DNA of 64,000 nucleotides from contig NZ_QKNW01000001.1 in NCBI RefSeq assembly GCF_009663395.1, forward strand, positions 558,001 through 622,000, written 5' to 3'. This stretch comes from Halosegnis longus (lineage in GTDB: Archaea > Halobacteriota > Halobacteria > Halobacteriales > Haloarculaceae). The notes below the pieces were generated by a model. The model did not search any database, had not been told where the DNA came from, and was given only the letters and a program-made list of their open reading frames with translations. Of the stretch, positions 2,745 through 50,045 are shown in pieces (positions within the stretch are counted from its first letter, which is position 1; each line of letters opens with the position of its first letter). The position numbers and the translations under genes are program-made.

Positions 2745-2899
2745 ACGTCTCCGTTCTGGCGGCGTTGTATAGTCGTTTCCTCTCGTTTGTTTGGTGGTGA
2801 TTGTGTTTCGAACAGTTCCTCGGCGTCTTCGACATCGTCTCGGAAGTGTTCGCTCGGGTCGTCTACTGCTTCGATACGCCCTCGAAAGCCCCCGCGCCG
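2741..2899 (-). pseudogene. Possible C-terminal gene remnant upstream of purC
   Basis: On the minus strand an open frame without any ATG, GTG or TTG start runs from an in-frame TAG at 2902-2900 to a TGA that overlaps the purC ATG. Its middle reads like haloarchaeal protein: acidic IEAVDDPSEHF followed by DDVEDAEELFETQ. The last ~20 codons coincide with the AT-rich purC promoter and are unlikely to be coding. It could be the tail of a gene cut off when the adjacent repeat arrived, or chance acidic coding potential in GC-rich DNA. I do not recognise a family. Confidence 0.25.
2767..2775 (-). promoter_or_regulatory. TATA-like box of purC
   Basis: On the minus strand this reads gactataca, 23-31 bp upstream of the purC ATG at 2744. 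That is the spacing expected for a leaderless haloarchaeal transcript. The surrounding 2760-2815 stretch is clearly AT-richer than the neighbouring coding DNA. Confidence 0.5.
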
Positions 2900-2907
2900 C
2901 TACCGCA

Positions 2908-3260
2908 CCAACCTTTCCCCACACCGCACACGCTCGCACGGCGAGCGGTGCGGTAGGCCACCGCCTCGGTTGCTTGTGCGGTGGCGTGGTCCGAGCGCGC
3001 ATCGGCGCGCGAGTCAGTGCGAGGTCGTCGCGAGGGCACCGAGCGACGGCTTGTCAGAGCGTGCGCTGACAGTGGACGAGTGAGCACCGCGAGCGAGTCG
3101 GCTGGGGAGGCGTGTGGGCGGTGCTGTCGGGTGGACTGAAAGGGGCGGGCGTGTCGCGCGTGTTCGGTCGGTTCCGTGACCACTATCGGGAGCGAGCGCA
3201 GCGAGCGACCGATATGTCACGGGGAGACCGCGACACGTCCGGGGCTTTCAAGCCGTACTC
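2908..3260 (+). repeat. Dispersed structured repeat, copy A
   Basis: Non-coding region between divergent purC and nreA. It shares order and sequence with 49663-49951 (copy C) and partly with 20217-19960 on the minus strand (copy B). Shared blocks include gccaccg-ctcggttgc, a GC-rich hairpin near 2994-3013, cgagtcggctggggaggc, and a terminal module 3137-3250. The module has 22-bp inverted arms (3137-3158 and 3229-3250, starting tgaaag and ending ctttca) around an inner hairpin formed by ccgtgac (3174-3180) and gtcacgg (3216-3222). I see no credible protein in it. It could be a structured RNA, a regulatory leader or a MITE-like element. Confidence 0.75.
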
Positions 3261-3352
3261 ACCAACGTAGTTGCGGTCACCAAGCGACACGTCCGGGGCT
3301 TTCAGGCTGGTCACAACAGAGCAGTCACCAGACGACACGCCCGGAGTGTTCA
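3231..3352 (+). repeat. Three tandem degenerate copies of the repeat's right arm
   Basis: The motif cgacacgtccggggctttca occurs at 3231-3250, again exactly at 3285-3304, and in degenerate form (cgacacgcccggagtgttca) at 3333-3352, with periods of 54 and 48 bp. The spacers share gtcacca-type sequence, and acagagcagtca appears twice (near 3316 and 3367). The array ends about 90 bp before the nreA start. Copy C of the element has only one arm at this place. Confidence 0.8.
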
Positions 3353-3443
3353 AGCGGTCACCAATAACAGAGCAGTCAAATGAGTAGAGAGGTCCAGAAA
3401 CAGGCGAACAGTTCAAGACCGAGAAAGCAGAAACTGAACCCGA

Positions 3444-19959: not shown

Positions 19960-20217
19960 AGTACTGCTTCCGAAGCCCTCGCACTTGCTCCGGTCGATGC
20001 GCCGGCTGCGCGCCTCGGGGTCGCGCTGTCGCGCGGCCACCTGCGGTGCTTGCTCGTGCGCGTCGTCCCGGAGCGGGCTCGCCCTTCGAGTCCGCCGAGG
20101 GACCGCACCGCCCACACGCCTCCCCAACCGATTCCGTCGCTCACGTTCGTTCGCTCCGTCATCCCTCGCGCTGACTCGCGCGCACGAGGCGCGCTCGGAC
20201 CACGCCACCGCAGGAGG
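19960..20217 (-). repeat. Dispersed repeat, copy B, between trpE and trpG
   Basis: On the minus strand this region reads through the same blocks as copies A and C: gtggcgtggtccgagcgcgc, then cgcgagtcag, cggttggggaggcgtgtggg and a ggactcgaagggcgag start of a terminal module, which ends with gagggcttcg...gcagtactc near 19960. The 5' half is close to copy A; the 3' module is diverged but keeps the same arm pattern. It points in the same direction as trpG. I see no credible ORF in it. Confidence 0.6.
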
Positions 20218-49386: not shown

Positions 49387-49662
49387 GCTTCGACGGCCGA
49401 AATCGACAGCAGGCGCGCCTGTGCGCGTGCTCTCGCGTGTACGTGCTCGTGCGTGTCGTGGTCGGGTTGGAGTGGTCTGTTTTCGATACTGCTGACGCTG
49501 TTTGGTATGGTTTCGACAGCACCGCGACCACTCTCGATGCTTGGCATAGGGGAAACAGCACCGCGACCGCAGCGGTCGCATCGCGCCACGAGGGCGCGAC
49601 GGACCGCTCGCTCGCGTGTCGCTGCGCTCCCGCTCGCTGGCCCGCGGCCTCCGGCCGCTCTC

Positions 49663-49951
49663 CCAACCTTTCACCACGACACACACGCGCCACGGGCGCG
49701 GTGCGTCAGGCCACCGGCTCGGTTGCCTGTGCGGATGGCGTGGGCCGGCGCGCCTCGTGCGCGCCCGTCGTCGCGAGGGACGAGTGAGTGAAACGAACGA
49801 GTCGGTTGGGGAGGCTCGTGGGCGGTGCGGCCGGGGGGACTGAAAGGGGCGGGCGTGTCGCGCGTGTTTGGTCGGCTCCGTGACCCCTCTCGACGTGAGC
49901 GAAGCGAACGAGAGATGTCACGGAGAGACCGCGACACGCCCGGGGCTTTCA
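49663..49951 (+). repeat. Dispersed structured repeat, copy C
   Basis: Lies between divergent topA and truD. It matches copy A through cccaaccttt, aggccaccg-ctcggttgc, cggcgcgcctcgtgcgcgc, gagtcggttggggaggc and the terminal module. That module (49841-49951) has inverted arms tgaaaggggcgggcgtgtcg+cg (49841-49862) and its near-complement at 49930-49951 ending gggctttca. An inner hairpin is formed by ccgtgac (49878-49884) with gtcacgg (49917-49923). Base pairs in the inner stem differ from copy A but remain paired. The 49355-49662 stretch before it holds only the topA promoter and CA-rich sequence without a credible gene. Confidence 0.75.
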
Positions 49952-50045
49952 AACTGTACTCACCAAAGCAATCAGAGAAGTCGAACTCCTAATCAGAATC
50001 GGGCAAGCGACACGTCCAAACCACCGCCACCCGAACACCGAGAAA

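Follow-up and report, generated by a model that had tools for sequence, protein, structure and literature searches.

A dispersed haloarchaeal hairpin, represented by copies A and C and a degenerate copy B in the window (the whole stretch of 64,000 nucleotides of Halosegnis longus DNA analysed here), is conserved in its folding, as RNA or as single-stranded DNA. The fold is real, conserved, widespread and apparently undescribed; this last point comes from the open-access literature, so a description elsewhere is possible. In our reading, the hairpin forms the core of non-autonomous mobile elements that are dispersed between genes, make up a family spanning the haloarchaea and resemble REPINs and PATEs; they may be recognised as a folded single strand. 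We give this reading a probability of roughly 0.5. A strongly covarying fold that occurs in about 80% of the sampled haloarchaeal genomes, often in many copies, and is absent from Rfam and from the open-access literature searched poses a testable question in tractable models, namely whether it acts as transcript or single-stranded DNA and which protein binds it. It also bears on the spread of palindromic repeats in archaea and on the reading of covariation where DNA hairpins may be involved.

The core hairpin of copy C, delimited by a fold calculation, occupies positions 49841 to 49951 of the + strand (111 nt) and is matched by the covariance model R1 with 37.5 bits (E 2.6e-6). It is built from TGAAAG/CTTTCA outer pairs, a GGG/GGG internal loop and 12-bp arms, inside which lie a 5' bulge of about 8 nt, an inner stem and an apical loop. 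The 5' arm gggcgtgtcgcg (GGGCGTGTCGCG; 49851 to 49862, +) and the 3' arm cgcgacacgccc (CGCGACACGCCC; 49930 to 49941, +) were read from the sequence, and the inner stem CTCCGTGAC/GTCACGGAG with its TCTCG/CGAGA apical variant was placed at 49876 to 49925 (+) by sequence and fold. Copy A, with the TATCGG/CCGATA variant, spans 3137 to 3252 (+; R1 34.9 bits, E 1e-5), and its arms cgcgacacgtcc contain a single G-T wobble. The letters that an earlier note on this DNA had quoted for the arms and inner stems of both copies are all present at their positions. Folded as RNA, copy C reaches -66.4 kcal/mol (z -6.7), and none of 200 shuffles was as good; under DNA parameters its z is -7.3, and copy A has a z of -5.6 in the shuffle comparison. 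Adjoining ccgtgac/gtcacgg, the inner stems read tctcg/cgaga in copy C and tatcgg/ccgata in copy A, which the note had taken as covariation. The covariation is real, but the TATCGG/TCTCG swap is a block exchange: the two core variants also differ in loop length, so the inner-stem swap alone counts as one event.

Across the family, the fold measures about 100-115 nt and runs from TGAAAGGGG through variable arms of 10-13 bp, conserved internal loops and an apical hairpin to GGGGCTTTCA. The hairpin ends TGAAAGGGGC...GGGGCTTTCA are common across haloarchaea, while arm and core sequences differ and the arms remain complementary. The internal loops carry conserved G-A-rich motifs (GACGYAAGCAC/GCGCAGCGAG), and they are kept, together with bulge length and ends, between families whose arms share no sequence. 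Matches on Haloarcula and Halorussus plasmids, recruited by sequence similarity alone, have the same ends, bulge and internal-loop anatomy, and their arms are different yet perfectly complementary (CACGCCGCTGGCG/CGCCAGCGGCGTG and GGCGCGCTCGCG/CGCGAGCGCGCC). The 14-nt motif GGACTGAAAGGGGC was found in 35 of 59 genomes, against no matches for the reversed control; by hand count, 13 of the 20 loci fetched with this motif end in GGGGCTTTC and have arms that complement each other. The interior GACGYAAGCACC...GGAGCGCAGCGAG marks a second core type. Model R1 was built from an alignment of this type (A2) that holds no copy from the window or from its genome (G000), and it recovers window copies A and C as well as the degenerate B. 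It matches 235 of the 293 genomes of the order, in 70 of 87 genera. When 158 genomes sampled from the phylum were searched, none outside the order was among the matches listed, and all 23 genomes with a listed match belong to it. Phages gave no match to the element, viral contigs gave none to the 21-nt 3' arm motif, and Rfam returned no match at the gathering score and none plausible at relaxed thresholds. That the hairpin is a Halosegnis-only repeat kept by DNA-level exchange was considered and dropped on the cross-genus copies and the strand asymmetry described below.

The earlier note had proposed selection on the fold rather than on primary sequence, with the caution that two copies are weak statistics. 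The caution was borne out within Halosegnis, where most stem sequence does not vary and copies are homogenised: in the 17 copies, 98.3% of cells pair, double changes occur in 3 pairs, and the covariation score is 0.081 versus 0.054 for shuffled alignments. Stacking more members gives the proposal itself strong support. Alignment A2, whose members were recruited partly by arm complementarity, shows double changes in 20 of 29 pairs. In alignment A5 (91 distinct copies), 97.9% of cells pair, compensatory double changes occur in 26 of 29 pairs, and the covariation score is 0.626 versus 0.158 shuffled and at most 0.064 slid. Because the family alignments are fits to the model, they are biased towards the fold; given the effect size and the slid controls, an artefact is nevertheless unlikely. 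Among 78 arm pairs there are 75 different 5' arms, and 94% of positions are Watson-Crick. Stem positions varying independently, which the note had named as counter-evidence, were thus looked for among many members, and the pairs change in compensation instead.

Statistically, the fold that is kept is shown to be that of the top strand. In the large family set, GU cells outnumber AC cells on this strand by 62 to 10 (p 3e-10), with 41 of the 62 GU cells contributed by two columns, without which the ratio is 21:10 (p 0.07); the apical triloops are GNA in 64 and TNC in 2 of 84. The tolerance of G-U far above A-C and the one-sided GNA loops together identify the top strand as the one that folds. 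Halosegnis copies alone give GU:AC ratios of 7:4 in the hairpin and 1:3 in the inserts, which have no power. Of the alternatives "folded RNA or DNA" in the earlier note, the folding stands and can be assigned to the top strand, but the GU:AC ratio and the GNA loops do not tell which polymer it is. GNA loops are exceptionally stable as DNA mini-hairpins (PMC4686876), and half of the GNA-triloop hairpins of genome G005 lie near the element motif, versus 8% expected. The GNA-triloop evidence leans to DNA without deciding. The comparison of DNA and RNA hairpin energies proved uninformative as a test of these loops, the parameter sets having no GNA bonus. In G005, 44 of 56 long triloop hairpins have GNA loops on either strand (p 2e-25), and a large excess is also seen in G052; in the samples from these two genomes (L217-L243), the hairpins in excess have loops of exactly 3 nt, in most cases GNA or the complementary sequence. 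It is absent from the G000, G008 and G058 samples.

The hairpin is a dispersed repeat, with about 15 full copies found by BLAST in G000, the window's Halosegnis genome (chromosome of 2.45 Mb), and about 11 full copies plus fragments in G002, taken as H. rubeus F17-44; in the single genome G001, the exact core motif is counted 70 times forward and 60 times reverse. Differences between sister species comprise inserted elements, gained modules, deleted hairpins and inverted loops. The orthologous topA-truD space of the sister species G003 is without the hairpin element, and two more loci measure about 600-660 bp in G000 versus about 30 bp in G003; no clean target duplication was found at these empty sites. 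At four loci in G002 the left part or tail is kept and the hairpin is absent, and hairpin deletions run between short GGGGC repeats. Two double-hairpin modules occur in some copies and not in others, always at the same points: ins1 lies in the 5' half, ins2 ahead of the 3' arm. At truD, for example, G002 carries ins1 and G000 does not; ins2-like modules are found independently in G005 and in G001, and no target duplication is visible where ins1 or ins2 was gained or lost between orthologous copies. The apical loop is inverted in two G002 copies (L071 and L074). Hairpin similarity is 0.862 between orthologs and 0.862 between paralogs within G000; as orthologous hairpins are no closer than paralogs despite flanks that are 89-94% identical, the copies exchange sequence.

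The elements are intergenic, with neighbouring genes in every configuration, on which ground a cis-regulatory leader or terminator was rejected as a general explanation. Window copies A and C both lie between divergent genes; at 40 resolved sites in other genomes, 14 are divergent and 6 convergent. Back-to-back (-+) pairs outnumber head-on (+-) pairs by 16 to 1 in the sampled loci, and copies A and C are single. All full G000 copies at 305 to 1056 kb are on the + strand and all those at 1123 to 1406 kb on the - strand. This change of strand coincides with the best Orc1/Cdc6 gene (1114 kb) and with a sign reversal in GC skew; for the copies at 31 kb (+) and 2194 kb (+), the local skew is unclear. 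By hand count, 13 of 13 copies on clear arcs agree with their replichore, or 13 of 14 counting the exception; the exceptions are G000 2194 kb and G002 C6:248 kb, and hairpin-less fragments are mixed. With so few copies, a replichore-following orientation of the full Halosegnis copies is suggestive. Such orientation has been reported for single-stranded DNA transposons (PMC5371812). As a general rule it was rejected, since by eye the family matches of further single-contig genomes, G065 and G037 among them, do not show it. The + strand skew around the main Orc1/Cdc6 gene (G000:C1:1114 kb) is positive to the left and negative to the right, a sign opposite to that of the usual bacterial origin, unless this is not an active origin.

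Under the mobile-element reading, a trans-acting enzyme would recognise the folded single strand by its shape, conserved ends and internal loops, and the element would spread and be kept through that recognition. Arms read in this way could drift only in complementary pairs. The recognised form would most likely be single-stranded DNA exposed at replication forks or by supercoiling. Loop inversion and homogenisation would come on top, through hairpin-templated repair and copies exchanging sequence. Put more broadly, and tentatively, the hairpins may form a haloarchaea-wide class of genomic elements with no counterpart in Rfam. Their folded single strand, perhaps single-stranded DNA with GNA-loop mini-hairpins, would be read by shape by a putative haloarchaeal enzyme or RNA machinery while the arms drift in complementary pairs. 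No transposase was linked to the element and no clean element ends were defined. G000, which is 99.85% complete, has no Y1 transposase (PF01797); elsewhere G002 has two, G005 and G022 one each and G003 a broken one. The G-U tolerance is also expected of an RNA, which counts against the mobile-element reading.

The main rival, which we regard as rather doubtful, is a structured RNA family, either a non-coding RNA or a processing element in transcripts, repeated through the genome and selected as transcript. In its favour are massive covariation (26 of 29 pairs), a large excess of GU over AC on one strand, G-A-rich motifs in the conserved internal loops and an excellent RNA fold. Against it, the position relative to neighbouring genes is not constant, no TATA-like box was found in the two window elements, and no Rfam match was obtained; neither the 70 forward versus 60 reverse core motifs of G001 nor the complete insertions and deletions, the inserts with double hairpins and the inverted loops suit it. 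A quite improbable alternative is a functionless DNA palindrome that owes its perfection to mutation bias alone, through template switching and gene conversion between arms and copies. The inverted loops of L071 and L074, paralogs as similar as orthologs, tail repeats that track the local arm sequence (L084, L080) and deletions between GGGGC repeats are as it would have them. A process equal on both strands should nevertheless yield equal GU and AC, and the 62:10 asymmetry leaves this reading strained; nor does it account for bulge length, internal loops and ends conserved where arms share no sequence. Strong hairpins in intergenic regions could also be transcription terminators or 3'-end stabilisers, a role made very improbable by the few convergent sites (6 of 40, versus 14 divergent), by the divergent genes around copies A and C and by the absence of a T-tract beyond CTTTC.

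Among known systems, the bacterial REP/REPIN sequences with their RAYT (TnpA-REP) transposases are likewise dispersed, intergenic, non-coding imperfect hairpins, often in inverted doublets. The present element is longer (about 100-115 nt versus 20-40), ends in GGACTGAAAGGGGC...GGGGCTTTCA without a GTAG/CGTC tag, has arms hypervariable even inside one genome, and in G000 is not accompanied by a Y1 (RAYT) transposase. Integron attC sites have conserved ends and variable complementary arms and are recognised as a folded single strand. The element has ends and arms of this kind, but its core boxes differ and no integrase or gene cassettes were seen here. The PATEs and SMRs of Haloquadratum walsbyi (PMC3119063) are also haloarchaeal, short, non-coding and palindromic. 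In PATEs, near-terminal palindromes are related to IS605-type transposons (PMC3119063), whereas here the palindrome is the core, and searches of plasmids and phages brought up no IS605-type insertion sequence. The H. walsbyi small repeats insert into palindromes of other elements without target duplication (PMC3119063), which ins1 and ins2 resemble. Both inserts are double hairpins, as in the mitochondrial GC clusters and double-hairpin elements (PMC4478555), which are GC-rich palindromes that multiply, merge and nest; they belong to another domain of life, and the abstract describes no large covarying fold.

The Halosegnis hairpin is one part of a larger intergenic element, ordered as left units of about 60 nt, a GC-rich palindromic module, the hairpin and 1-3 tandem units of about 50 nt in which the 3' arm recurs together with GGGGCTTTC. 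Compared as the terminal inverted repeats of a MITE, the left and right units proved weak inverted homologs, scoring 36 where the best of 2000 shuffles reached 34.5. In copy C, a left unit of about 60 nt (CAGCACCGCGACCACTCTCGATGCTTGGC) and the palindromic module ending TCGGTTGGGGAGGCTCGTGGGCGG occupy 49520 to 49840 (+) by sequence comparison, and the right tail (49952 to 50018, +) includes a degenerate second 3' arm (GCGACACGTCC, about 50008-50018). Copy A has its left palindromic module at 2880 to 3136 (+), likewise by comparison, and tandem right units of about 50 nt (GCGACACGTCCGGGGCTTTC, then ACGACACGCCCGGAGTGTTC) at 3253 to 3355 (+). Copy B, of the other core type (AAGCACCGCAG...GAGGCGCGCAGC), lies on the - strand at 19971 to 20089 (R1 26.5 bits, E 8.8e-4), and comparison places its left module, common to copies A and C, at 20100 to 20210 (-). 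Tandem repeats 3' of the hairpin match the local arm sequence (L084, L080, L041), so that a single 5' arm could have a choice of several 3' partners. The upstream module TCGGTTGGGGAGG...GTGGGACTGAAAGGGGC (window 20100-20210, 49748-49840 and 2990-3136; L079, L259) is itself kept across genera (a Halobaculum plasmid, G022). Other Halosegnis species (G005, G001; L138-L152) carry a related mosaic element with degenerate terminal inverted repeats GTGTTCAGATAAG...CTTATCTGAACAC, common inner ends CTGAAAGGGGC/GGGGCTTTC and many double-hairpin inserts; its inverted ends are clear in one 260-bp copy.
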